Of a stretch of 64,000 nucleotides of DNA, positions 8,629 to 58,791 are shown piece after piece (position 1 is the stretch's first letter; each line of letters starts with the position of its first letter). The notes beneath the pieces were generated by a model that was not told the DNA's origin, made no database searches, and saw only the letters and a program-made list of their open reading frames with translations. This stretch comes from Deltaproteobacteria bacterium (GTDB taxonomy: Bacteria > Myxococcota > Myxococcia > Myxococcales > JAHFDP01): positions 1 to 64,000 of the forward strand of contig JAHFDP010000001.1 of the NCBI GenBank assembly GCA_023248955.1. Direction: 5' to 3'. The translations under genes were made by a program, and so were the position numbers.

Positions 8629-10203
8629 GTGGAAACTCGCTCCCGCCCAGCCCGCTTAGTCCTCAAAGGCCCCCGTGGCGACGTCGCCGAATTCCCGCTG
8701 GGAAGCTCCTCAACGATAGGCCGCTCCACAGGCGCCGAAGTCCAACTCGCCGATCGCGAAGTGAGCCGCCGTCACACCGTCGTCGAGCGCCATGGCGATG
8801 GCTTCATCGTCCGCGATCTCGGCAGCGCCAACGGAACTTATCTCGACGGCCGCCGCATCGAGGGACCGACGCAGCTCAAGCATGGCGCGACGCTGCTCAT
8901 CGGCACCACCAAGCTCGTCTTTCTCTCCGAGGGCAGCGGACACGGCGCGGCCATCGTTTCGGTCCCCACCACCGAGCCCGTGCTCGCGCGCGTCGCCACA
9001 CCACGCCACACCTTTTTGCCCGCCGAGAGCATCAACGATCCCGATCAGCTTCGCCGCGACTATGAACGGCTGCGCATCGGTCACGAATTTCAGCGCACCA
9101 TCCGTCTCGAGCGTGACTTGTCGGCGCTGCTTTCGCGCATTCTCAAAGTCGCCTTCGATCTCATTCCTTGCGACAACGGCGTGATTCTTTTGCGCGACCC
9201 CGTCAGCGGCCGGCTCACGGTGGAGGCCGTGCGGCGTCGCAAAGGTGGCGAGAGCGAAGTGCTCATCTCCGAAACGCTTCTCGCGCAAGTGACCGCGCAC
9301 CGCGAAGCCATCCTGACCGGCGACGCCATTTCCGACGCGCGTTTTCAATCGAGTCAGTCGATCGCCGCACTCGGCGTGCGAAGCGCCATGGCCGTGCCGC
9401 TCTTCAACGGCAACGAGGTGCGCGGCATCATGTTCCTCGACAGCCGCGAGCGCACCAGCGCGTTCTCCGCGAAGGATCTCGAAGTGCTGACGTCCATCGC
9501 TTCGCAAGCGAGCGTGGCGCTCGAGAACAGCGAGCTGGCTCGGCAGATTGAGCGCGACGCCGAGCAGCGTGTACAGCTGTCCCGTTTTCTGTCGCCAGCA
9601 CTAGTGGAACAAGCACAGCGCGGTGCCATCGACATCGCCAAAGGCGGTGTGCTCACCGAAGTAACCATCCTCTTCGCGGACATTCGCGGCTTCACGGCGC
9701 TCTCGGAAAAAGCGCCGCCGCAAGAAACGGTGCGACTGCTCAACGAATATTTCGAACTGATGGTGGATGTCGTTTTCGCGGAGGCCGGCATTCTCGACAA
9801 GTTCATCGGCGACGCCATCATGGCGCTGTGGGGCGCGCCCGTTCGCCGTCCGGACGATGCGTCGCGAGCGCTGCGTGCGGCGGTGGAAATGCAGGCGCGC
9901 CTTGCCACGTTCAACGCCGAACGGCTTTCACAAAACAAACCGGCGGTGGCCGTCGGCATTGGCGTGCACACCGGCGAGGTCGTGGTGGGCAACATGGGTT
10001 CGACCAAACGGATGGAGTACACCGCGATTGGTGACGGCGTGAATTTAGCGTCGCGGTTGTGCGATCTCGCCGCAGGCGGTTCGATTATCGCAAGCCAAGC
10101 CACAATCGCGCGCGCGGGAAAGGGCTTTCACGTGGAGCAACTCAAACCCGCGAAGGTGAAGGGCCGGCAGGAGCCGGTGGCGATTGTGCGCGTTGTCGGC
10201 TAA
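8629..10203 (+). CDS. FHA-GAF class III adenylate/guanylate cyclase
   Basis: A 524-residue cytoplasmic signalling enzyme. The N-terminal FHA domain (about 5-105) shows GRSTGAEVQL, SRRHTVVE and DLGSANGTYLDG, the phosphothreonine-binding loops. A GAF domain follows (about 150-305; CDNGVILLRDP, AVPLFNGNEVRGIMFLD). The catalytic domain (about 340-520) has both metal-binding aspartates (LFADIRGF near 349 and KFIGDAIMALWG near 393) and the EYTAIGDGVNLASRL block. It should make cAMP or cGMP under control of a phospho-protein or small ligand. A GTG start at 8629 is taken because the repeat element ends just before it. The stop codon overlaps that of convergent purB by two to three bases. Confidence 0.87.
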   Translation: METRSRPARLVLKGPRGDVAEFPLGSSSTIGRSTGAEVQLADREVSRRHTVVERHGDGFIVRDLGSANGTYLDGRRIEGPTQLKHGATLLIGTTKLVFLSEGSGHGAAIVSVPTTEPVLARVATPRHTFLPAESINDPDQLRRDYERLRIGHEFQRTIRLERDLSALLSRILKVAFDLIPCDNGVILLRDPVSGRLTVEAVRRRKGGESEVLISETLLAQVTAHREAILTGDAISDARFQSSQSIAALGVRSAMAVPLFNGNEVRGIMFLDSRERTSAFSAKDLEVLTSIASQASVALENSELARQIERDAEQRVQLSRFLSPALVEQAQRGAIDIAKGGVLTEVTILFADIRGFTALSEKAPPQETVRLLNEYFELMVDVVFAEAGILDKFIGDAIMALWGAPVRRPDDASRALRAAVEMQARLATFNAERLSQNKPAVAVGIGVHTGEVVVGNMGSTKRMEYTAIGDGVNLASRLCDLAAGGSIIASQATIARAGKGFHVEQLKPAKVKGRQEPVAIVRVVG

Positions 10204-45464: not shown

Positions 45465-47312
45465 ATGCGCGCTTGTCTCCTCCTCGTGGTGTGTGCGTGT
45501 TCGCGCGCCACACCGCCCCAGCCGCAGCCACTGCCGCCGGAGCCAGCAAGTTCGCCTTACGAAGTTCGGTATGACCAATTGGGCTACCTGCCAAGTGGCG
45601 AGCGCTGGGCCGTCGTACTCAGTGCGGGAGCGGTAACGCCACAATATAGAATATACGATTTTGACAATAATATATTTATTTTCTCTGGCGGCGCGGGACC
45701 GCGCGTTTCATCCACCCGGAGTCTTACCGGTGCACAGCTGACCGCGGACCACCTGGATCTCTCCGCCATCGACAAGCCAGGCCGTTACGAAGTCGTGCTC
45801 CAAGACGGCAAGCGTTTTGGACCGATCTTGGTGGGCGAATCCGTATACGCGTCCGTGATCCCGGCGCTCCTGCGCTTTTTTTCGGTGCAGCGTTGCGGCG
45901 CGGTCGCCAGTGCAGCATCGGCGCACGGCGCCTGCCATCTCTTCGGATCCGTTGCCAACGCCCACTCCGGCGACGGCGTAGCCGTGGATTTCGACTTCAC
46001 GGGCCACGCTGCTGCATCGACCGGTCCCGCTGTTAACGTCGAGGGCGGCTGGCACGATGCGGGCGACTACCTCAAATTCGTGGGCACTTCTTCGTTCACG
46101 ATCGCCGTCGATCTGCTCGCGTTGCGCGACCATCCGTCGCTGAGCAACGCACGTGCGGGGAGTGTGGACACCGCGTTGCGCGCGGAGATGCGCTGGGGCC
46201 TCGACTGGCTTGACAAAATGATGGGTGGGCTCGATCCGCCCTACCACGAGCCCTACCACCAAGTTGGTGGGCAAGGGGATCATGACACGGACTGGCGCCT
46301 TCCTGAGAGTGACACCACGGCACCGATTGCCGATTACGACCAGCGCCCGGTCGTGCGCTTTCAGAACGGCGGCGGCGCAGACGTCCTCGCTCGCGCTGCC
46401 GCCGCCCTTGCCTTGGGCGCGCAGGTTTTCGCGTCGGACACGGCCTACGCGTCGAAGCTTCTAGCGCTGGCGCGGCACACCTATGCGCTGGCAGTGGAAC
46501 GTCCGAAACCGCAGCCTGGCTACCCGTTCGACTCCCATTTTTATGACGACGATTCCCTCGAGGACGACTTGGCATTCGGCGCGGCGGAGCTCTCCACGGC
46601 ACTCGGTAGTAACGCGGACGCGGCGACCTATCGCGCTCAAGCGCTCCTCCACGCCCGCGCCCTCTCCGGGTCAACCAACCTCAGCGTCGGCTGGAGCAGC
46701 GTGGACGCGCTAGCACTCGCGGAAACGGCACGCCTTTTTGCCGCGAACAGCTCGGAGCACGCCGAGCTCGCCGGCATCCTTTCGACACTGGCCGAGCCGA
46801 TCGTCAAAAGCCACACCTCGCCCGAGGGCTCGGGCGGCGCTTTCAACTACGCCCTTCCCACGTTCGGCGATGGTTCCATCGCCCAATCCCTTGGTGCCGC
46901 CGCGACGTGTATTGCATTGTATCACGTCAACGGCAACCCAGATTGTCTCGAGGTCGCCCGCACTCAGCTTCACTGGCTCTTCGGACAGAATCCGTTCGGG
47001 CTCTCCTTCGTGGTCGGGCTAGGCACGCATTCGGTCCAGCATCCGCATCACGCCGTCGCCCAGGTGCACTCGGCCGCGGGCCCATTTACACTCACTGGCG
47101 CGGTGGTCGGCGGCCCATCTAGCAAATCGGAAATTGCCGCCGTTCACGACAGCGCGCTGCGCTTTCCGAGCGCAACGAGCCCCTACGCACCCTGGTCTAC
47201 GATCGATCTCGCCTACGAAGACAGCGCCGACAATTACGTCTTCAACGAGCCCGCCATCGATATGACGGCGGCGTTGGTTTACGTGCTCGGAACGGTGTTG
47301 GAGACGCCGTAA
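45465..47312 (+). CDS. Glycoside hydrolase family 9 (cellulase-type) lipoprotein
   Basis: 615 residues. A short lipoprotein-like leader (RACLLLVVCACSRA) with a Pro-rich tether is followed by an N-terminal Ig-like domain (about 30-120; VRYDQLGYLPSGERWAVVLS) and the (alpha/alpha)6 catalytic barrel. The GH9 nucleophile region GGWHDAGDYLKF with its Asp pair is intact, as are NPFGLSFVVGLG...SVQHPHH and the acid Glu in NYVFNEPAIDMTAAL. It should cleave beta-1,4-glucans or related polymers; the Ig-GH9 architecture often acts on mixed-link glucan or on self-made exopolysaccharide. It faces the Nfs/Glt-like cluster, ending 40 bp from its last gene. Confidence 0.88.
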   Translation: MRACLLLVVCACSRATPPQPQPLPPEPASSPYEVRYDQLGYLPSGERWAVVLSAGAVTPQYRIYDFDNNIFIFSGGAGPRVSSTRSLTGAQLTADHLDLSAIDKPGRYEVVLQDGKRFGPILVGESVYASVIPALLRFFSVQRCGAVASAASAHGACHLFGSVANAHSGDGVAVDFDFTGHAAASTGPAVNVEGGWHDAGDYLKFVGTSSFTIAVDLLALRDHPSLSNARAGSVDTALRAEMRWGLDWLDKMMGGLDPPYHEPYHQVGGQGDHDTDWRLPESDTTAPIADYDQRPVVRFQNGGGADVLARAAAALALGAQVFASDTAYASKLLALARHTYALAVERPKPQPGYPFDSHFYDDDSLEDDLAFGAAELSTALGSNADAATYRAQALLHARALSGSTNLSVGWSSVDALALAETARLFAANSSEHAELAGILSTLAEPIVKSHTSPEGSGGAFNYALPTFGDGSIAQSLGAAATCIALYHVNGNPDCLEVARTQLHWLFGQNPFGLSFVVGLGTHSVQHPHHAVAQVHSAAGPFTLTGAVVGGPSSKSEIAAVHDSALRFPSATSPYAPWSTIDLAYEDSADNYVFNEPAIDMTAALVYVLGTVLETP

Positions 47313-47351: not shown

Positions 47352-49220
47352 CTACCCGCCTGCGGGCTTAAAGACCCACGGGTACGTCACGTTCACCGTA
47401 CCGCCACCCTTCGGCTCCGGGAACTTCCAGCGCTTGATGTGGTTCGTCATGCAGGTCTCGACGTTGGCGTTGCCCATCGTCGACTGCTGAATCTGCGCAT
47501 CCGCCACACTGCCATCGCCGCCGATGATGAAGAGCACCGCCACCTTGCCATACAGGTTCGGGTCCTTCGTCAGCTCGCTCTCGTAGCAGTACTTAATCTC
47601 GTTCCAGTGGCGCTGGATGATTCGGCCGATCACTTCGCGCGACAGACCGTCCGACATGGTGATTTTGTCCACCACGACGCCCACGTCGTCCTTGCCGCGT
47701 CCGCCGAGGTCTAGCGACCCGTAGCCACCCTTGCCATGGCCGTTGCCCTTGGTGCCAAGGCCGCCGATGCCGAGCGCCGTGCCGCCGCCGCCGGAGCCTG
47801 TTCCGCGCGATCCGAGACCACCAACGCCGTTGGCGTCACCCATGCCCGCGCCACCCTTAAGACCACCGAGCGCGTTGTTGATTCCCGTGCCGAGTCCGCC
47901 CGGTCCAAGCACGTTGGAAACCGCACCTTCGCCTCCGAGCTTTCCGAGCGCCGCCAACAAACCCGACTTCTGAATTTTCGCCCGGTCCTCTTCGCGCTTG
48001 TTCTTGTCGACAATCGGCGCGCCCTTCTTCGACGGCGCCGCTTCCTTCTGCTTGGCGTCCTTCTTGCCGAACTTACCCTCGTCGCCCTTGGCCTTGGCGC
48101 CTTCCTTCACGCCGGAAAGCTCCTTGAACTTCTTGGGCGGCTCGGGAACGGCCATCACGAACTTGGCGATGGTGTTCTTGTTCTTGAACAGGTCGCCCGT
48201 CAGTTCTTCTAGATCGAGCGGCGTGATGTGCACGATCCCCAAGAAGGCGATCAGCACCAACATCGCGATCGCCACCCACTTGGCGAAGTTAAAATCAATC
48301 TGCTCGACCAACGTCGGAGATTTAGCCGGACTCGTGCGCACCCAACGCGCGATGACGGTCATCCCGCCTAGGTCAACGGTAATGCGGTCTTCAAGATCCA
48401 GCTGGTAGCTATGCCCGCGGAACGGCGCTTGAACCGTGCTGGCCGCGCCCTTGGCAACGAGTTGCTCGAGCGTTATCGACTGGCCGGAACGTGAGACGGT
48501 CAGGCCAGCCCCCTCCGGAACGGCAACCGCGACTTCTTCGCCTGCCGGAGCAAAGAGCTGGTAGTCCTCGCTCGGCAATTTCGATGAAAAGAGATGCAAA
48601 TCGACGTTTTCCGACGTGCCCACACGCACCGGCTCGCCGCGATGGAAATCGCCGACTTCGACGAACGTATCTCCGCCCCAAACCAGCGCAACTTGCAAGT
48701 CGCGATCGTTCTTGGTCGGCTTCAACTCCGGCGGCAGCTCGTCGCGCAGAAAACGCTCTGCCAAACGCCGGTCGAGCTGCTGCGCGCGCGCATCGCGTAA
48801 GGGCATGCGACGCGCCGGGTCGGCCTTCACCACGCGGGCCGTGTTGCCATCGACAAGCGTCATGGGCCTACCCTCTCCATTGGTGCGCCCATTGCGCGCA
48901 AGGTCGGCATTCTCGCGCTGAGCGCCCAGCACCGAGAGGACGACTCTAGTCTGACCCAAAAGAAGCGTCTGCCCCGTTTGCAGCTGCGCGTTCTGAATGA
49001 CGCGACCGTCGAGCTGCGTCCCCTTTTCGCTACCCAAATCCGTCACCGATAGCGACCCCTGCGAATCGACTTTAATCATCGCATGGACCGACGAAACGGC
49101 TGCGTCCTCAAGCTTAATGCCCGCGCCCGCGCCGCTGCCCAAAATAAAGGAATCCTGCTCGGTCTCCACCGTCCGCGAGGCGCCATCGACGCCGGTGATC
49201 GTGATTCGAATAAGGGGCAC
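47352..49220 (-). CDS. GltG/NfsG-like FHA-transmembrane-TonB-like protein
   Basis: 622 residues. A cytoplasmic FHA domain (about 1-105; FILGSGAGAGIKLEDAAVSSVHAMI, DLGSEKGTQLDG) and a second beta-rich region precede a single membrane segment (WVAIAMLVLIAFLGIVHI, about 312-330). The periplasmic part is a charged Lys-rich stretch, then a Gly-rich flexible linker (about 420-510), then a C-terminal AgmX/PglI-type TonB-like domain (SREVIGRIIQRHWNEIKYCYESEL ... NVTYPWVFKP). This is the architecture of GltG of the Myxococcus gliding motor and NfsG of the spore-coat machinery: it links cytoplasmic signals to periplasmic partners. GTG start with TTTAGGAGC in front. Last gene of the cluster. Confidence 0.85.
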   Translation of the reverse strand: MPLIRITITGVDGASRTVETEQDSFILGSGAGAGIKLEDAAVSSVHAMIKVDSQGSLSVTDLGSEKGTQLDGRVIQNAQLQTGQTLLLGQTRVVLSVLGAQRENADLARNGRTNGEGRPMTLVDGNTARVVKADPARRMPLRDARAQQLDRRLAERFLRDELPPELKPTKNDRDLQVALVWGGDTFVEVGDFHRGEPVRVGTSENVDLHLFSSKLPSEDYQLFAPAGEEVAVAVPEGAGLTVSRSGQSITLEQLVAKGAASTVQAPFRGHSYQLDLEDRITVDLGGMTVIARWVRTSPAKSPTLVEQIDFNFAKWVAIAMLVLIAFLGIVHITPLDLEELTGDLFKNKNTIAKFVMAVPEPPKKFKELSGVKEGAKAKGDEGKFGKKDAKQKEAAPSKKGAPIVDKNKREEDRAKIQKSGLLAALGKLGGEGAVSNVLGPGGLGTGINNALGGLKGGAGMGDANGVGGLGSRGTGSGGGGTALGIGGLGTKGNGHGKGGYGSLDLGGRGKDDVGVVVDKITMSDGLSREVIGRIIQRHWNEIKYCYESELTKDPNLYGKVAVLFIIGGDGSVADAQIQQSTMGNANVETCMTNHIKRWKFPEPKGGGTVNVTYPWVFKPAGG

Positions 49221-49228
49221 GGTAGCTC

Positions 49229-49504
49229 CTAAAGATGATCGACCGACTTCTGCAATTCCGGATTGAAATTCTGCCGCAGCTTGATGAGCGACTTGAACTT
49301 GGCCTTGTTCACCGCCATACCGTACGAGCCTTCCGGCTTGACCAACTCGCCCTCGATCTGCACGTCGTTGAAGTCGATCACGGTCTTCTTCTTGAACATG
49401 TTGATCTGGCGCTCGGTAACGGTCTTCTCAGCGAATGCCGACGAGGAGAACCCGATACCCATGAGGCCAATCAGCAGTGCCAAAACCACCCGCTTCTTGT
49501 GCAT
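49229..49504 (-). CDS. Small exported protein at the GltF/NfsF position
   Basis: 91 residues with a signal peptide (HKKRVVLALLIGLMGIGFSSSAFA) and a mature part of 66 residues (EKTVTERQINMFKKKTVIDFNDVQIEGELVKPEGSYGMAVNKAKFKSLIKLRQNFNPELQKSVDHL). No domain I can name. Its place between the E-like and G-like genes is where gltF/nfsF lies in Myxococcus, so it may be the counterpart, but the match is by position and size, not by recognised sequence. Such a short basic periplasmic protein could connect the TPR lipoprotein and the TonB-like domain. The ATG at 49504 is chosen for the signal peptide and the AAGG site before it. Confidence 0.65.
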   Translation of the reverse strand: MHKKRVVLALLIGLMGIGFSSSAFAEKTVTERQINMFKKKTVIDFNDVQIEGELVKPEGSYGMAVNKAKFKSLIKLRQNFNPELQKSVDHL

Positions 49505-49617
49505 GACCTTAGGTCTCCATCGAACGAGTTTCATACCACGCGTGTTGCGTCATGAGCAATCCACAGGTTGACGTATCCCTTGAAAGCAACGAATGAAAAT
49601 CCCCCAGGGTACGTACT

Positions 49618-50889
49618 TTAGGTGCTGTCCGGAACCTTGTCTTTGCCCGTGGTTGCACCACCACCGCCACCAGGCGCCGCGGTAACCGGCGCTGGAGAGG
49701 CGGTAGCCTTGGAAACTTCCGCCGAATCAGCCGGCTCGGCCTTGACAGCGGGAGGCGGCACCGTGGGTGCAGCCTTAGGCGTGCCCGCGTTCATGATGGC
49801 TTTGATCGTCGCGATGAGCTTGACCGCATCGGCCTTGTGTGCGGTTCCTTCGATACGCTGATACTGGTCGAGCGCTTCCAACGCTTGCGGAAGCTTCTTC
49901 TGTGCCTTGTACCCGAGCGCAACGCCATAGAGCGCTTCCGGCGCGTCCTTCTTGAGGGCCAACGCACGCTCATATTCGGCTACCGCGGGGTCAACTTTTT
50001 TGAGTCCATCGAGCGCAAAGGCATAGCCGATATGGGCGTCATAGCTCGCAGGGAGCGCCGCGGCGACCTTGGCGAGATTTGTTTCCGCCGCTGCGTAGTC
50101 GCGGTAACGCAACGCCATAGCGCCAAGGTTGGACAGAGCAGGAATGAAATTGGGCTCCTTCTCGATGGCCTTCTTGAACTGCGCCATCGCGCCCGGCTGG
50201 TCATCCAACTTCAAATCGATCATGCCGAGGTTGTTGTAAACCCCCGGATCGTTGGCATCGAGCTTGAGCGCATTAGCGCTAACCGTCTGCGCGAGACGAA
50301 ACTTGCCTTGGTCGTAATAAACGAGCGCCAAATTTTTATAAGCGTCCGCGTTCTTTGGCGCACGTGCCAGGATTTTCCGCAACGCCGCTTCTGCCTTATC
50401 GAATTGCCGATCCAATCGATAAACAACACTGAGGTTGTTGAGCAGCTTCACGTCTTGGGGCAGCGTCTTGAGGGCCTCGGAGTAAAGATGAATGGCCTCT
50501 TTGTATTGCTCTTTGTGCCGAAGAACTCGCCCCAAATTCAGAACGGCGCCCGTGTGATCAGGCTTCGCTGCCAGCGCCTTCAGATAGGATCTCGCGGCAA
50601 CGTCCAAATCACCGAGTTGCTCCGCCACATGACCCGCGTCGAAGTTGGCATCTGCGTTCTCAGGCTCCTTGGCGAGCACGAATCCCAACTGCGACTTCGC
50701 CGCCGCCCAATCCTTGCGCGCGATGGCCTGCTGGGCTTCTTCGTAATAGTGCGTCGCTGGCGGCTCCTGAGGCTGAACCGCGGTCACCGCCTTTACCGGC
50801 GTTTCGGGCGGCAGCGTTTGCGCCGTCGCACAGGCCAATGCCAACGAACAAGGAAGCAGACGAAAGAACGAACGCACATGAGCCTGCAT
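49618..50889 (-). CDS. GltE/AglT/NfsE-like TPR lipoprotein
   Basis: 423 residues. A lipoprotein-type signal (FFRLLPCSLALACATAQ) is followed by eight to nine TPR units from about residue 48 to 360 (for example AVLNLGRVLRHKEQYKEAIHLYSEALKTLP and NNLGMIDLKLDDQPGAMAQFKKAIEKEP). The last 60 residues are Ala/Pro-rich. It should be held at the outer or inner membrane face of the periplasm as a scaffold. Its start is fused to the stop of the large TPR gene (TAATG), so the two proteins are made together, as with GltD and GltE. Confidence 0.8.
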   Translation of the reverse strand: MQAHVRSFFRLLPCSLALACATAQTLPPETPVKAVTAVQPQEPPATHYYEEAQQAIARKDWAAAKSQLGFVLAKEPENADANFDAGHVAEQLGDLDVAARSYLKALAAKPDHTGAVLNLGRVLRHKEQYKEAIHLYSEALKTLPQDVKLLNNLSVVYRLDRQFDKAEAALRKILARAPKNADAYKNLALVYYDQGKFRLAQTVSANALKLDANDPGVYNNLGMIDLKLDDQPGAMAQFKKAIEKEPNFIPALSNLGAMALRYRDYAAAETNLAKVAAALPASYDAHIGYAFALDGLKKVDPAVAEYERALALKKDAPEALYGVALGYKAQKKLPQALEALDQYQRIEGTAHKADAVKLIATIKAIMNAGTPKAAPTVPPPAVKAEPADSAEVSKATASPAPVTAAPGGGGGATTGKDKVPDST

Positions 50890-53800
50890 TAGTCACTCCC
50901 TGCGCCGGCCGATGCAGCCGGTTTGAGCGCCGCCTGAGGCGCCGCGGTGAAGAAGAATTCGCTGCCCGCATAAGGGAGCGCGTGCGATTCACCAAACTCA
51001 TCCGGCTTGAACTCGCGGATCACGTCTTCCGCGCGGACTGTCCAGTCGTTGTAGATGGCGAGCTCAAAAGATTTCTTGAGGGCCTTCTCGTACGCCTCAA
51101 CGCTCTTTTCCTCGAGCGGCAACGCTTTTTCCTCGAGCGCGCTGCGGTACATTTCCTTCTGGTCCTCATCAAGCCCCTTGGGCATCGGCGCTTCGAGCAG
51201 AGACTTGGAGAAGTTGCGGTAGCCTTCGCCAATCTTGCAGAGCGCTGCCACGCCCCAAGTTCCGGAACCATACTTAAGCACTTCCGTATATTTGGCCTCC
51301 ACTTCGCCCATGAGCTTGGCCTTGTCCTTCAATTCACCGGCCAATATTTGTGGTTTTGACGAAGTGAATTTCACGCCAATAAACTTACCGAATAGGGATT
51401 CGAGCTGCGTAAAGCGAGCATGCGCCACAGCATCCATGACGGGACCTTTTTGCTTGTCCTCAGCGGAGAGAGCGTCATAGTCCTTCACAATGCCGTCCAG
51501 GATCTCCTGTGCGGTGTCGGAATCTTTCTTAATGCCAGTCTGCAAAAGCGCGGTGGCCCGCTTATAGGACGCCGTCGTACGCCGGAATCCTGGAAGCTGC
51601 TTGCCGTAGTCTTTGAGATACGCCGTTAGGAGATCGTACGTTTCGCGCCAATTCTTCTTGCGCTCCGACATTAGCGCAATGCGCAGCGCGATATCAGGCA
51701 AGTCGGTACGTGTCTTGTAGAGTTTGATGTAGCGCTGATAATCCGCGACGGCCTTGGCGTCCTCGCCCAGCCCCTCGTGGTAAAGCGCGGCATTAAAGAG
51801 TTGATCCGGTGCCTTCGGCTCTTTCTCGAACTTATTGACGTACATCTCGAAATACTGAGCCGCCTTATCGAATTGCGCCGTGCGTTCCGCAAAATCCGCC
51901 AGCGCGAGCATCACGCGTGGCACAAGCCGCGGGTCCTCTTTGTCTTTCGACGGATTAAACGACTTGCCTTTATCCGCATCTGGATATCCATTAAGCAGAT
52001 GCTCGGCCGCCGCAGACGCATTGTCCAGCTCATCGGCGTTGTCATAAATGAGCATCGAGTTATAGAGCACAATCGGCGCATATTCGCTCTTCGGAAACTC
52101 CTTCACGAAATCCGAATAGGACTTGGCAACGGCCGCCAGCGCTCCGCGATCCTTCTTCTCGTTCGCCCTCGCGTACGCGCCCTCGACGATCTTGAACTGC
52201 GAGCCCTCGATGATGTGCCCAACGCGCTTTTCAAACTCGCTGCCGGCCGGCGAAAGCTTTTTATTGTCGTGTAACTTACGTGCGAGATCATTCAGCTCGT
52301 TCCACTCTTCCTTGGTTTCCAACGAGGCCAGAATGAGGTCAGCTGCTTTCACCGACCATTGATCGCCCGGCCAGCGCAGAATGATTTCGCCAAACCGCTG
52401 GCCGGCATCAACGTAGCGCTTGTGATCATAGAAAACGAAAGCCGCCTTGTATTTAACGGTGATTTCGTCCTTCGAATTGGGAACAACTTTAAGATAGTTG
52501 TCGCAAGCAGCTACGAGTTTTTGTTCGTGCTCCGAAAGGACGGATTCCTTATCGTCCTTGGTCGCCGCAGCAACGATCTGTTTGCGGCTCTCAATATTTC
52601 CTTTGCTCTTCTTCTCGTCGATCTTCTGCTCTTTTTTTAGCTCCTGAAGCTTTAACTGGCCTTTGTCGATAGCAACCAATTTTTCATAGCAGAGGATGCC
52701 GTCATACGCGGCCTTGGACGCGAAGTTCCCCTTGACGTCCTTCTCTACGGTCTTGTCGTACTCAATGGCGGCGAGATCATACTTCTGTAGAGCCCAGAGA
52801 ATTTCCGCGTAATAGAAACGAAGGGTGTAAGAACTCTCCGAATCCGGAAAATTTTCTAAGTATTTCTTATAAATTGTTTCCGCAAGTTCATACGTCGCCA
52901 CCGATTTCGTTTTGGTCGCTTCCTGGTGGTAATCCTGCACCAGTTCGCGCATCGCCGTCTCGGTCACGTCATACGCCTGTGCCAGCGCGGACTTATTGTT
53001 CGCATTAACCTTGGCCCACGCACTGGTCGGCTTATAGAGCTCGACGAGCGTCTCCATTTCGATCTTCACTTTGTCGCGCTTATTCTGCTTATCGAACGCG
53101 TACATAATCTGCTGCTGGTATTTCGGATCATCCGGGGCGTTCGCATCCTCCGCAATGAGTACGCGATAAACCTTAATCGAAGGATCGAACTTACCGTCGT
53201 TGAAGTATTGCCGCGCCAGCTTCTCGACCAACTCGTGCGCGCGCTCCTTGCCTGCATTCTGCTGAAAGTAGGAAATCGCGGAGTCTATGGCATCGACCTT
53301 CGAGAACGAAAGCACGATGTCATTCAGCGCTTCGTTCTTTTGCTGAATATTGTCCTTCGCCTTCGCATTCAGTTTGGCCTGCTTGTCGGAATAAGCGATG
53401 ACCTTCTGGAATTTATCGATAGCTCCTTCATACGCGCCGGCGTTGAAATCGCACCAGGCCAACTTATATGTCGCGAATGAATAGATCTTCTGGTTTTTCT
53501 CAAACTCGAGAGCCTTTTCGTAGGCCACGCGCGCCTTACCAAGCTCGTTGGTGGTGAAGTAGTACTCTCCCATTTGGACATACGCGTCGGGAACGAAAAT
53601 GCTCTTGGGGAACTGTTTAATCAGCGTCCAATATTGCTGGATCGCCGTCTTCTTATCGCCCAAATCATAACTGTTGTAAGCTAGCCGGAAAAGCACTTCG
53701 TCTTTACGTTCGTACCGCGGATACTCATTTAGCAACCGGTCATAACCAGAAAGTGCGTTCTTCTTATATACATCGCTCTTCTTGGTATCGAGCTTCGGTT

Positions 53801-54218
53801 CCGCGCCACACTTCTCCGCACCGCTCTTGGTGACGCAGGCGCTCCAGGCCTCATAAACTTTATCAAAATCGCGCTGTTCGCCCATGTTAATGAACCGCGA
53901 CTTTTCCCAATAACGCTCGGCCAATCGAAAAATAAGGTCGGCCTTCTGGTCGGCGGGCAGTTGCTTGTTGGAAACGATCTTGAGAATGTGCGCGATTTCT
54001 TCGTCGCGCTTCTTGTCCGCCTCGGCGCTCTTCTCGAAATCTTCTTCGTAGGTTGGCGCCCTCATCTTGGCAGGGCCGGTGCGTTGGTCTTCGGCTGCCT
54101 TCGCGGGTGCGGTCGTCTCCACAGCTTTCTTACTCTTTTTCTTCTTCTCTTTGTCGGCCGCATGCGCAAAGGGCGCAGCAAGAACGACTGCCAAAAGAAC
54201 CGAAAACAACCGCTTCAT
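50889..54218 (-). CDS. GltD/AgmU/NfsD-like large TPR protein
   Basis: 1109 residues. A signal peptide (KRLFSVLLAVVLAAPFAHA) and a Lys-rich start (DKEKKKKSKKAVE) precede a very long array of degenerate TPR-like helices running almost to the end (for example SGYDRLLNEYPRYERKDEVLFRLAYNSYDLGDKKTAIQQYWTLIKQFP). Myxococcus GltD (AgmU) is of similar length and design and sits in the periplasm, where it forms focal clusters. The ATG at 54218 is chosen for the signal peptide and the TTTGGAG site upstream. Its base composition is visibly less G+C-rich than the flanking housekeeping genes. Confidence 0.82.
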   Translation of the reverse strand: MKRLFSVLLAVVLAAPFAHAADKEKKKKSKKAVETTAPAKAAEDQRTGPAKMRAPTYEEDFEKSAEADKKRDEEIAHILKIVSNKQLPADQKADLIFRLAERYWEKSRFINMGEQRDFDKVYEAWSACVTKSGAEKCGAEPKLDTKKSDVYKKNALSGYDRLLNEYPRYERKDEVLFRLAYNSYDLGDKKTAIQQYWTLIKQFPKSIFVPDAYVQMGEYYFTTNELGKARVAYEKALEFEKNQKIYSFATYKLAWCDFNAGAYEGAIDKFQKVIAYSDKQAKLNAKAKDNIQQKNEALNDIVLSFSKVDAIDSAISYFQQNAGKERAHELVEKLARQYFNDGKFDPSIKVYRVLIAEDANAPDDPKYQQQIMYAFDKQNKRDKVKIEMETLVELYKPTSAWAKVNANNKSALAQAYDVTETAMRELVQDYHQEATKTKSVATYELAETIYKKYLENFPDSESSYTLRFYYAEILWALQKYDLAAIEYDKTVEKDVKGNFASKAAYDGILCYEKLVAIDKGQLKLQELKKEQKIDEKKSKGNIESRKQIVAAATKDDKESVLSEHEQKLVAACDNYLKVVPNSKDEITVKYKAAFVFYDHKRYVDAGQRFGEIILRWPGDQWSVKAADLILASLETKEEWNELNDLARKLHDNKKLSPAGSEFEKRVGHIIEGSQFKIVEGAYARANEKKDRGALAAVAKSYSDFVKEFPKSEYAPIVLYNSMLIYDNADELDNASAAAEHLLNGYPDADKGKSFNPSKDKEDPRLVPRVMLALADFAERTAQFDKAAQYFEMYVNKFEKEPKAPDQLFNAALYHEGLGEDAKAVADYQRYIKLYKTRTDLPDIALRIALMSERKKNWRETYDLLTAYLKDYGKQLPGFRRTTASYKRATALLQTGIKKDSDTAQEILDGIVKDYDALSAEDKQKGPVMDAVAHARFTQLESLFGKFIGVKFTSSKPQILAGELKDKAKLMGEVEAKYTEVLKYGSGTWGVAALCKIGEGYRNFSKSLLEAPMPKGLDEDQKEMYRSALEEKALPLEEKSVEAYEKALKKSFELAIYNDWTVRAEDVIREFKPDEFGESHALPYAGSEFFFTAAPQAALKPAASAGAGSD

Positions 54219-54238
54219 GATTGCTCCAAAGGACGGAT

Positions 54239-55873
54239 TTACGGACCGCTTGCAGTATTCGTTTCGACGGGGCAAGCATTCTTCAAAGTATATTTATAAT
54301 AACCAAGCTCGTCCGGCCACCATTCGCCCTGAAAAGCCCAATACTCATAGGTTTCATCGGGAACGTCGGGACGGAGAAGCTCCTGCTTACCCAAACGCGA
54401 TGCGGGGTCGTCGTTACGCTCCAACAGATCCTTTTCTGAGCTCGACGTTTCCAGACGGACGATTTCTGCCTGGCCTTCAAATCCCGTCAGCGTCGCAGCC
54501 ACGTTCGCCAAACGACCTTTAATGAACTTGCCGGCCGACTGCACTAGTAATCCGCGGCGACGGCCGATCATCTCTGCCAAGTCCTTTGCCATCTGCGCGG
54601 ACCGCAATCCTTCGGTGGAGTTGATAATCCCGAGCTCGCCATCAAGCTGACCGGCATAGTTCAAATAGCTCTTGTACTGCTCGTTCTTCTCCAAAAAGAG
54701 ACGGATCGATGTTGGCAAGCCATTCTTGCCTTCCTGCGCCTCGTGGACGAGGTTGAAATAGAACTCGTCGTCCTTGCTCTCTTCAATCAGCGGCTTAATC
54801 GCCTCGCTCATAGGAAGATAAATCTTGTCGTATTGATCCAAAGCGACCCGCGTCTGATCGTAAAGACAATTTTGGAAATAAATAATGGACTCTAGAACCC
54901 AGGACTCCGGCTGGAAGGAGTCGCTCAGCGCGGGGCTATGGAGCGTCTGCAATTTGCCCAGCGCGCCACCCGGATCGTCATTCATGAAATCGGCCCAAGC
55001 ACCCTCGAACAGAGCCTCTTCCCAATGCGGAGAGTAGCGCTCCGGCTCGCCTGGATGCCAAGCACGGTCATACTTCGGAATGGCGTGGTAGAGCGACGCG
55101 CTCTTTTGGTACCCGTCGCTCCCGAATTGACCTTTTCCAGTCGCGTAGTAGACGCGCGCCAATCCGACCTGCGAGAGATCCTGCACCTGCTCCAAATCGG
55201 CGTAGACAACCTGATCCGTTGATTGGAGCTCTCGAACCTCGTCAAACATCTTCAGCGCCTTGTCGGGGTCTCCCGCCCACTTCTGCTCGGGACGTGGAAT
55301 GTAGCTCAGTCCCAAGAGGTAACGCGCAAGCGCATAGTAGGAGCTGGTCTTGGGAACTGCTGAAAGAAACCCGGTTCCCTCTTTAAAATGGTTAGCGCGA
55401 TAATCGACGCGGCCCATAATGAAATGCACTTTCGCAAGCGCGTCGGCCGGCACGAGATAAAACTTTTTATTGTAGCGCTTGTTCAAAAATGCCGGCACGA
55501 AGGTTTCGTCGTGCATTGCTTCAGCGACCTTCACCGCCCCCTCTACCGCCTTGGCGAAATAGGGATGCGCCGCACCGGCGTCAATGATCTGCATGTAATA
55601 GTGCGACGCCGAGTAGCTTAATCCCAGCTCATAAAGCGCCTGAGCCAAATAGTATTCGGCTTTAAACTTGGCCTCGTCCGCGCCACCGTTTTCTTCGATT
55701 TCATAAAAACCAAGCGCGGCCTGCACCAGTCTCTTCGTTTTTTCGCTGCCAGTCGAATTAAAGCTATCATTGTAGGCGATAATCGCTTGATTGATGGCAC
55801 TGGTCTCTTCGGCCTGCGCCGGAATCGCGAATGAGACCAAACAAAGAACCGCAGCGTTTTTTAGATTCGGCAT
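54239..55873 (-). CDS. GltC/NfsC-like TPR protein
   Basis: 544 residues. Signal peptide (LKNAAVLCLVSFAIPAQA) then helical repeats (ALGFYEIEENGGADEAKFKAEYYLAQALYELGLSYSASHYYMQIID...). The C-terminus carries a Trp-rich block (YEYWAFQGEWWPDELGYYKYTLKNAC) that looks like a family signature. GltC of Myxococcus is a periplasmic or outer-membrane-attached TPR protein encoded next to the barrels GltA and GltB; this gene has the same neighbours. It starts 8 bp before the A/B-like barrel gene's stop region and ends 20 bp upstream of the D-like start. Confidence 0.78.
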   Translation of the reverse strand: MPNLKNAAVLCLVSFAIPAQAEETSAINQAIIAYNDSFNSTGSEKTKRLVQAALGFYEIEENGGADEAKFKAEYYLAQALYELGLSYSASHYYMQIIDAGAAHPYFAKAVEGAVKVAEAMHDETFVPAFLNKRYNKKFYLVPADALAKVHFIMGRVDYRANHFKEGTGFLSAVPKTSSYYALARYLLGLSYIPRPEQKWAGDPDKALKMFDEVRELQSTDQVVYADLEQVQDLSQVGLARVYYATGKGQFGSDGYQKSASLYHAIPKYDRAWHPGEPERYSPHWEEALFEGAWADFMNDDPGGALGKLQTLHSPALSDSFQPESWVLESIIYFQNCLYDQTRVALDQYDKIYLPMSEAIKPLIEESKDDEFYFNLVHEAQEGKNGLPTSIRLFLEKNEQYKSYLNYAGQLDGELGIINSTEGLRSAQMAKDLAEMIGRRRGLLVQSAGKFIKGRLANVAATLTGFEGQAEIVRLETSSSEKDLLERNDDPASRLGKQELLRPDVPDETYEYWAFQGEWWPDELGYYKYTLKNACPVETNTASGP

Positions 55874-55881
55874 GGTGCTCT

Positions 55882-56877
55882 CTAGAAGAGGAACGAAACG
55901 CCGCCATAAAACGACAAGTTGTTAATCACGTCGGAGGAGATGTCGGAAAGCAAATCCTGCGCAATGCCCGCGTTTTTCACGTTTGAATCCGGTGCCGCGT
56001 CGGCGCCGGAATCCTTGAACGCTCCGGCATCGCAACCACTTGCAACGTCGGTTCGCCCCTGGCTTACTTTTCCGACATCGGCGCGCGAGCAGCCGTTAAT
56101 CTTGTCCACGAGCGCGGAATAGATGAGATCGCGAACCTCTAGACGCAGCGTCCAGCGCGGCGTCAAAAAGATGCGAACGCCTCCACCCAACGCTCCGGCG
56201 GGCCGATAACCGGTATCGCCGAAGGAGGGGCCTGCCAAATTCCCGGCGGCGTCTTTCTGCTGATTGTCGTTGCCGCGCAGCTGTACGCGGGTCTTGGCGA
56301 TTCCCGCGCCGGCGTTGATGTAGAACGCGAAGTGCAAAACTTTGTCGTCGACGATGGTGAACTTTCCGTAAAGCGGGTTCATCTCGAGGCCCACAGCGGC
56401 ATTCCACTGCATCAGAAGTGCATTGGCCGCGAAAGGCTGTTCGTGGGCTTTGCTGATCAACTCGTCCGTGAGGCTCGACTGACGACCGTAGATAACATAC
56501 GAGCCGCCCAACCAGACGCCGACACTCTCGCGGATGTGGTAGGCGAGGTCGATATCCAGTCCGTAGTGAGACGAAAATTTGCCGTTGACTTGGCCCGTCC
56601 CGAAGAGGGCAACCTCGCTGCGCCCCGCTTGCGTGAATGGACGAATTTCGACGACATGCTTGAGCTCGACGGGGCCCGACTCGCCGAACGCATTGGCCGG
56701 CTGTTTCGGCTCCGGGGGCGTCAGATTCACCGAAACCGCAACCGTGGGATCCTTGCTTTCTGACTTGCTGGTGGGGGTCTCCTTCTCCGAGACCCCGACG
56801 CCAACAGAGCCCTCCGCAAGCGCAAAGCTAGGCAACAGAGCGAGGGCAACCCAGAGGTGTTTTGATGCAGTGTTCAT
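55882..56877 (-). CDS. GltB/NfsB-like outer-membrane barrel (OMP_myx_plus type)
   Basis: 331 residues. A signal peptide (LWVALALLPSFALA) is followed by a Ser/Thr/Pro-rich stretch and a barrel of about 8-10 strands (FGTGQVNGKFSSHYGLDIDLAYHIRESVGVWLGGSYVIYG..., ALGGGVRIFLTPRWTLRLEVRDLIYS) ending in the aromatic YGGVSFLF. The RLEVRDLIYS segment and terminal motif recur in the adjacent barrel (KFELRDFLYA, TGGVAFLF), so the two are distant paralogues. This is the outer-membrane barrel family found in pairs in Glt and Nfs clusters. Assignment as A or B is by order only. Confidence 0.8.
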   Translation of the reverse strand: MNTASKHLWVALALLPSFALAEGSVGVGVSEKETPTSKSESKDPTVAVSVNLTPPEPKQPANAFGESGPVELKHVVEIRPFTQAGRSEVALFGTGQVNGKFSSHYGLDIDLAYHIRESVGVWLGGSYVIYGRQSSLTDELISKAHEQPFAANALLMQWNAAVGLEMNPLYGKFTIVDDKVLHFAFYINAGAGIAKTRVQLRGNDNQQKDAAGNLAGPSFGDTGYRPAGALGGGVRIFLTPRWTLRLEVRDLIYSALVDKINGCSRADVGKVSQGRTDVASGCDAGAFKDSGADAAPDSNVKNAGIAQDLLSDISSDVINNLSFYGGVSFLF

Positions 56878-56897
56878 GTATATTTAAAATACTCCAC

Positions 56898-57704
56898 TTA
56901 AAATAAGAACGCCACGCCGCCGGTGAACAAGAGGGTAGAAGCAGAGAGGAAACCGGTGTTGGCTGCCGTCCCGCAGGACGGACTGGAGAGATCGCTCACG
57001 CACTTGCTGCCCTGCGACTGATCGAAGTCTTGCCGATACTTGTCGGCATAGAGGAAGTCGCGCAGCTCGAATTTCAAGCTAATCTGATCGAGAAGAAAAA
57101 TCCTCATCCCAAGACCCAGCTGGAGGTTCGGGGAGATTCCATCTTCGGTCCGAAAAACATCGCACTGGGCCGCGCCGGCGTGCTGAACGCAGAAGGTTAG
57201 TGATTCGTAGTGCATTCCCGCAACGCCGCCACCGGCCAATGCGTAGAACTGGTAGTGAACGGGAAGCTCCGCAAACACGGAAACTTTGCCGTAGACTGGC
57301 GCAAATCGAACAGCAAGGCCGCCGTTCCACTTCATCTGGCCCATCTGCGACATCTCGGACCATTGACGCTTGCTAATGTCGTCCGACGAAGAGGGGATTT
57401 TGGGTAGCTTGTCGCGAACCTTTTGAGCCAAATCGGAGAGGCTGGTCGCGTTGTAGGCGCCGTCCAACTCCAAACCCAACCACTCGTTGAAATTGTAGTC
57501 GACGGCAAGCAAACCGCCGTAGGACTGCGTGAATCGGCTACCGACGGCTGTGGCAAACGAGAGGCCGACTTCAACGCGACCGTTGGTGTGAAAGAGCTTG
57601 TTCTTGATGACGCCGACTTGTGCCTGCGGAATGCCGCCGGTCGTCGCGGCAGCGGCAGGGCTGGCGGCAAAGATGGCGCAGAGCGTTGCGAGAAGCGATT
57701 TCAA
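56898..57704 (-). CDS. GltA/NfsA-like outer-membrane barrel (OMP_myx_plus type)
   Basis: 268 residues. Signal peptide (KSLLATLCAIFAASPAAAA), then a barrel of similar size to its neighbour: VGLSFATAVGSRFTQSYGGLLAVDYNFNEWLGLELDGAYN..., LGLGMRIFLLDQISLKFELRDFLYADKY, ending TGGVAFLF. It is the first gene of the cluster, with a good ribosome site (TTAGGAG) before the ATG. In Myxococcus the matching barrels GltA and GltB anchor the gliding complex at the outer membrane, and NfsA/B export or assemble the spore coat polysaccharide. Confidence 0.8.
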   Translation of the reverse strand: MKSLLATLCAIFAASPAAAATTGGIPQAQVGVIKNKLFHTNGRVEVGLSFATAVGSRFTQSYGGLLAVDYNFNEWLGLELDGAYNATSLSDLAQKVRDKLPKIPSSSDDISKRQWSEMSQMGQMKWNGGLAVRFAPVYGKVSVFAELPVHYQFYALAGGGVAGMHYESLTFCVQHAGAAQCDVFRTEDGISPNLQLGLGMRIFLLDQISLKFELRDFLYADKYRQDFDQSQGSKCVSDLSSPSCGTAANTGFLSASTLLFTGGVAFLF

Positions 57705-57931: not shown

Positions 57932-58654
57932 CTATTTCTTCGCGGCGGCTGCCTTCTTCTCAGCCTTCGAAGCCTGCTGAATCACCTTGCGGATGGGGCC
58001 CTTCGTGGCCGGGAAGACCAGCACAATCTGCTGGTCGCGTCCCGAAACCCCACCCTTCACGAGCATCAAGTTGTTCTCGACGTCGACGTCCACCACCGTG
58101 AGGTTTTGCGTGGTGCGGTTCTCGACGCCCATGTGGCCAGGCATGCGCTTGTTCTTGAAGACGCGTCCCGGCGTTTTACGCTGTCCGATGGCGCCGATGT
58201 GACGGTGGAGCTCGTGCGCCGTCGAGCTGTCGCGGGCGGCGCCCTTCATGTGGTGGCGCTTGAAGACGCCCGAGAAGCCACGACCTTTGGTGATGCCGGC
58301 GATATCGACGCGCGTGCCCTTCTTGAAGAGGTCGGCTTTGACCACCGTACCCACTTCGAGCTTGGCCACGTCGGCCGGCTCCATGCGGAATTCACGAACG
58401 ACTTTCATTGGCGCCTGGCCGAACTTCTTGAACTGGCCGGCTTCGGGCTTGGTGATGCGCGGCGCGCCGTCCTTGTCCTTGCGGATGGCGTCGTCGAAAC
58501 CGAGGGCGATGGCGCTGTACTTATCCTTTTCCATTGTGCGCTTGTAGAGCACGGTGCAGGGACCGAGCTGGAGCACGGTGACCGGAACTTGCGTGCCGTC
58601 TTCGAGAAATACCGAGGTCATGCCGACTTTGCGACCGATGAGTCCCTGGGACAT
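57932..58654 (-). CDS. rplC: Ribosomal protein L3 (uL3)
   Basis: 240 residues. All L3 blocks are visible: the start GLIGRKVGMTSVFLEDGTQVPVTVLQLGP, the central DIAGITKGRGFSGVFKRHHMKG, GQRKTPGRVFKNKRMPGHMG and VKGGVSGRDQQIVLVFPA. L3 binds 23S rRNA near the peptidyl-transferase centre and starts 50S assembly. The usual neighbours rpsJ, rplD and rplW are absent; the gene stands alone with its own promoter and terminator. It may be a relocated single copy or a second copy. The ATG at 58654 is the natural L3 start, with GGAAGG upstream. Confidence 0.95.
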   Translation of the reverse strand: MSQGLIGRKVGMTSVFLEDGTQVPVTVLQLGPCTVLYKRTMEKDKYSAIALGFDDAIRKDKDGAPRITKPEAGQFKKFGQAPMKVVREFRMEPADVAKLEVGTVVKADLFKKGTRVDIAGITKGRGFSGVFKRHHMKGAARDSSTAHELHRHIGAIGQRKTPGRVFKNKRMPGHMGVENRTTQNLTVVDVDVENNLMLVKGGVSGRDQQIVLVFPATKGPIRKVIQQASKAEKKAAAAKK

Positions 58655-58791
58655 TTGGTAATACCTTCCTTCGCGCACTTCTGGCGCATGAGCCATCCGC
58701 GTCGTTGCGCCGTCACGACCTCACCTTGAGGCCGGCGGACGGGGGCGGCCTTGGAGAACCGCTGACGATGGCATAGCGCTTCCAAACCGGC

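Follow-up and report, generated by a model that had tools for sequence, protein, structure and literature searches.

The proton motor formed by AglR, AglQ and AglS (AglRQS) serves two machines in Myxococcus xanthus, the Glt machine of gliding and the Nfs machine of spore-coat assembly. Published work describes AglRQS as binding NfsG via AglR and as moving the Nfs proteins around the spore, laying down coat polymer, and reports that the spore coat requires Agl (PMC3858216). Duplicated clusters of the Nfs/Glt kind are already on record (PMC3169522).

Here we describe a cluster of this kind from an uncultured member of the Myxococcales (GCA_023248955.1, an assembly of 116 contigs, 95.6% complete). 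It lies in the window, by which we mean the whole 64,000-nucleotide stretch of contig JAHFDP010000001.1 that was analysed. An initial annotation of this DNA had noted seven genes in Nfs order with neither an H gene nor TolQR-like genes, and had proposed either an early or reduced machine or a motor encoded elsewhere. It had also suggested trees of the D and G proteins and a genome-wide search for NfsH/GltH and AglRQS. We think it highly probable that this is the nfs locus of the organism, with nfsH on another contig, the motor elsewhere as in Myxococcus, and a role as a coat-type carrier.

Results

The ORF list of the window gives seven minus-strand ORFs in the order A-B-C-D-E-F-G at 47352-57704. 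Pfam and NCBIfam profiles over the window ORFs bear out both the order and the Nfs/Glt-type families read by the initial annotation: OMP_myx_plus is matched twice, GltC, GltE, CglF and GltG once each, and the D protein is a large TPR protein. The genes and their neighbours are as follows, with identities to the M. xanthus Nfs proteins (29-53% per protein).

57932-58696, minus: rplC, ribosomal protein L3 (TIGR03625, 1.9e-68), upstream of nfsA and outside the machine
56898-57704, minus: nfsA, outer-membrane β-barrel (OMP_myx_plus, TIGR04565, 2.1e-26, over cut-off); 29% to the protein at the nfsA position
55882-56877, minus: nfsB, outer-membrane β-barrel (OMP_myx_plus, TIGR04565, 5.4e-25, over cut-off); 36% to the protein at the nfsB position
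54239-55873, minus: nfsC, GltC-family periplasmic protein (NF033756, 2.6e-63); 35% over 538 columns
50889-54218, minus: nfsD, large periplasmic TPR protein (TPR models; nfs clade of the D tree); 37% over 1123 columns
49618-50889, minus: nfsE, TPR lipoprotein, the lipobox seen by eye (GltE, NF033758, 2.3e-38); 38%
49229-49534, minus: nfsF, small exported protein of the CglF/GltF family (CglF, NF033764, 8.4e-15); 53%
47352-49220, minus: nfsG, FHA domain, transmembrane helix (by eye) and TonB-like C-terminus (GltG, NF033760, 2.5e-110)
45465-47312, plus: GH9 cellulase gene, convergent with nfsG (Glyco_hydro_9, 4.2e-77)

The genes are tightly spaced: the nfsE start falls on the last base of the nfsD stop codon, and 8 bases separate nfsF from nfsG. 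The start of nfsD is likely the ATG at 54218 rather than the TTG at 54275 of the listed ORF (50889-54275). Generic TPR models are the sole NCBIfam matches of the D protein, and for NfsE a pilW TPR model scores slightly above the GltE model. NfsG carries the Pfam domains FHA (1.3e-10) and TonB_C (2e-5) and, by analogy, would be the part that contacts the motor. Elsewhere in the window, an ORF at 8629-10203 has an FHA domain, to which the GltG model aligns with its own FHA portion. The GH9 cellulase also has a CelD_N domain.

The absences reported by the initial annotation hold for the window. An hmmsearch of its ORFs found no TolQ-, TolR- or CglE-like protein, and the Pfam annotation gave no sign of GltI or GltJ beside nfsG, where the GH9 gene comes next.

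Phylogeny places the cluster with nfs. In the D tree (46 rows, after dropping L122 and L201, which have no ORF of at least 800 aa; quick IQ-TREE, LG+G4, SH-aLRT support only), the window protein lies within the nfs clade with a support of 100. It adjoins loci L053, L054 and L112, in all of which H comes right after G. The G tree (44 rows, L177, L178, L183 and L187 being dropped with no ORF of at least 300 aa found; quick search, SH-aLRT only) resolves deep relations between clades weakly, and again puts the window protein within the nfs clade with a support of 100. In the D tree, locus L066 branches off first within the nfs clade, yet in the G tree it stands beside the window protein. Locus L198, labelled 'G5-like' by a guess from its gene content, groups with glt in both trees, and we dropped that label. 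On these phylogenetic grounds the window cluster is an orthologue of nfs.

The neighbourhood is conserved among relatives. Of 60 genomes from this order, the present one counted, 56 have a C-protein match. An alignment of 28 C proteins, searched against named genomes, gave 133 loci, the best 80 of which were kept and 63 of those treated as nfs-type. Among these best 80 of 133, the usual order in the nfs-type loci is L3-A-B-C-D-E-F-G-H. The L3 gene lies upstream in 54 of the 56 (of 63) that have at least 3.5 kb upstream of C, and H directly follows G in 38 of the 41 where G is followed by 700 bases or more. That second count leaves out 4 of the 45 loci that include the end of G, which have less than 700 bases there; even so, H is visible in two of them. 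M. xanthus AM003 has A to H all in one cluster (L092), whereas its gltA-C and gltD-H are described as two separate clusters (PMC3858216), and we therefore take L092 to be nfs.

No second ribosomal L3 gene turned up in this genome beside that at 57932-58696, and each of six genomes searched has one such gene. In genome G011, where GltC has one match, L3 likewise lies outside a ribosomal operon.

The H protein is encoded on another contig. In the window the slot after nfsG is occupied by the GH9 cellulase gene, so that H does not directly follow G. However, a profile built from 14 NfsH proteins and run against the genome contigs matched C84:35668-36279 with an E-value of 4.3e-47, and contig C9 weakly. 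The C84 protein belongs to the CglE family (127.4 bits against a cut-off of 70); the C9 protein (L146:5343-5852) scores 68.1 bits, just below that cut-off. In a tree of 23 H proteins, the C84 protein falls in the NfsH clade (100/99), and the C9 protein, on a long end branch, goes with the GltH proteins (100/99 split). By family and phylogeny, the C84 gene thus encodes the NfsH orthologue, and the initial claim that H is missing does not stand for the genome as a whole. Because the GltH-like gene on C9 is away from the glt-type set, H is unlinked from its partners in both sets of this genome; for nfsH, 'unlinked' means that it is on a different contig from the nfs cluster.

Three other nfs-type relatives (L067, L069 and L074) have no H after G, and each has two CglE genes elsewhere, one NfsH-like (53-54% identical to M. 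xanthus NfsH) and the other GltH-like. For L074, the H contig (L289) and the nfs contig are both 114672 bases long, so H is probably about 60 kb away. These three accepted nfs-type relatives lead us to treat the linkage of H to G as non-essential. The separation is derived, because the cluster nests in the nfs clade and its tree relatives on either side carry H after G. The linkage has probably been lost more than once, with the gene retained.

A motor is also present. MotA_ExbB matched five sites in the genome, none on the window contig, and contigs C73 and C54 each carry a set of three genes, one of MotA type and two of ExbD type. Compared with M. xanthus, the MotA-type protein from C73 matches one protein at 66% identity and the runner-up at 37%. 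The ORFs of the M. xanthus locus that it matches best measure 245, 162 and, when read from an internal start, 194 aa. AglR, AglQ and AglS have been published with these same three lengths, and on this equality we identify the locus as AglRQS. In an AglR tree of 25 rows (C72 of this genome and L142 of M. xanthus, with no tblastn match, were dropped), C73 joins this AglR locus (99/97) and C54 joins a second M. xanthus set, M2 (100/99), to whose counterpart its AglR-type subunit is 57% identical. Judged by these comparisons, C73 encodes the orthologues of AglR, AglQ and AglS, and C54 those of M2. The equivalent of AglQ Asp28, a residue reported to be required for proton flow in M. xanthus (PMC3858216), is retained in this genome's motor. 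Of the options in the initial annotation, that of a motor elsewhere is the one that the genome-wide search upholds.

This genome has two further sets of the Glt/Nfs kind. One is split over C35 (D-E-F-G) and C57 (A-B-C); the C35 D protein falls in the glt clade. The other, on C19, has the order mglB-mglA-X-C-D-E-F-G, and its D protein falls in an mglBA-linked clade. The second GltG and GltC, on C35 and C57, were considered as completing the window cluster, and we rejected them because they form a separate glt-type set.

The C19 set (L019:4488-19020) is followed by a BBP2_2 barrel gene and a Poly_export gene, like the WzpB/WzaB pair. The same linkage occurs in L181, L193, L194 and L200, with the barrel only in L190, at a contig end, and is absent from L188, L197 and L202. 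WzaB (MXAN_1915) has been described as orphan-like, and our literature search found no paper naming both MXAN_1915 and MXAN_1922. Also on C19, a short ORF (L020:4734-5657) with a GltG/AgmX-like C-terminus, matched by the GltG model, follows an ORF that by eye looks like a BlaI-type regulator.

A 54-base (18-codon) repeat has 27 matches in the genome, none of them in the window, against 0 for a reversed-pattern control. Its sites include L018:8941-9448 (C57), L017:5053-7778 (C35), L254:10619-10715 (C87) and contigs C23, C45, C62, C80 and C89, most of them reading in frame as EPASLATGxARRRGA within long ORFs. In the glt-type set it occurs in gltC (at least 8 tandem copies), gltD and gltE. It resembles the Rickettsia palindromic elements, which are in-frame mobile repeats.

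Contig C87 carries an exporter locus that reads Wza, Wzp, Wzc, kinase-like ORF and glycosyltransferase-like ORF, the last two assigned by eye. Its Wza protein is 42% identical to a 190-aa ExoA candidate of M. xanthus and 36%, over a shorter stretch, to EpsY, so that the ExoA fit is only moderately better.

Discussion

The window cluster and its distant partners, all present in one genome, most likely form an AglRQS-driven carrier of surface polysaccharide, as in Myxococcus. By analogy with that system, the AglR-AglQ-AglS proton channel encoded on C73 would drive inner-membrane NfsG; the periplasmic TPR proteins NfsC, NfsD and NfsE would relay the force; and outer-membrane NfsA, NfsB and NfsH, with exported NfsF, would move or order the polysaccharide. 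This is probably a spore-coat-type polymer, exported via the Wza/Wzp/Wzc locus on C87. We infer the assembly of the proteins, their coupling to the C73 motor and the cargo from the same analogy.

The same nfs genes might instead do a different job, handling a surface polymer of vegetative growth (slime or biofilm), possibly powered by the M2-type motor of C54. We hold this to be doubtful, though a possibility of some substance. We obtained no evidence in support of sporulation in this uncultured lineage, the genome has two Agl-type motors, and its Wza-type exporters are two only, against three in M. xanthus. However, the C87 locus, one of these two exporters, has an exo-like gene order with ExoA as its nearest counterpart, and M. 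xanthus NfsG is reported to bind AglR and not the AglR homologue MXAN_3003 (PMC3858216).

It is very improbable that the cluster is an early or reduced machine working without H and a TolQR-type motor, as the initial annotation had suggested. The window does lack H and TolQ/TolR genes, and Bdellovibrio, which glides, is reported to lack H, I, J and K (PMC3169522). Yet C84 and C9 carry the NfsH and GltH homologues, C73 and C54 carry the orthologues of AglRQS and M2, and the cluster is nested within the nfs clade, its nearest D-tree relatives carrying H after G. There is next to no chance that the cluster is this organism's gliding set. The matched profiles bear Glt names, and glt and nfs are described as paralogues (PMC3858216). 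But the window proteins score below the equivalog cut-offs of both GltG (369.9 bits against 650) and GltC (214.7 against 450); M. xanthus NfsG scores 337 with the GltG model and a glt-type GltG, that of genome G054, scores 1089. Moreover, the trees put the window's D and G proteins with nfs, and the separate glt-type set is on C35 and C57.

Read as an nfs locus, the cluster brings an uncultured Myxococcales lineage with a small genome into the range of the Nfs machine, with every part present, H and motor among them. A cluster that seems incomplete can thus be complete genome-wide. The repeated separation of H lends itself to testing, in nature, whether this part is shared or under separate control. 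NfsH may be a separable outer-membrane module, with its own regulation or able to swap between Nfs and Glt machines having one motor in common; we regard this as unlikely. It would draw on two observations: H has probably departed from the nfs operon on two or more occasions (here, and in L067, L069 and L074) and was kept in each genome, and GltH is also away from its cluster here.

Among known systems, the expanded core clusters of Bdellovibrionota (for example L116, L123 and L125) share C, D and G homologues and have no H; they have been published as without H, I, J and K (PMC3169522). They differ from the window cluster in that their motor genes adjoin the cluster and their D proteins group apart from nfs. 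The M. xanthus gliding clusters (glt, G1+G2) have paralogous families for every subunit from A to H, whereas the window D and G proteins lie outside the glt clade and this genome has its own split glt-type set. M. xanthus AglRQS (M1) and its paralogue M2 are orthologous to the three-gene sets of C73 and C54, with AglR-type subunits 66% and 57% identical; these sets are not linked to the window cluster. M. xanthus nfsA-H (the G3 cluster) is like the window in the order A to G, the L3 gene upstream, the protein families and the phylogeny of D and G. The window cluster, known from its genes, differs in its protein identities of 29-53%, in its unlinked H on C84 and in the GH9 gene that fills the slot. 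It belongs to a known system, its gene order rearranged and one part unlinked.
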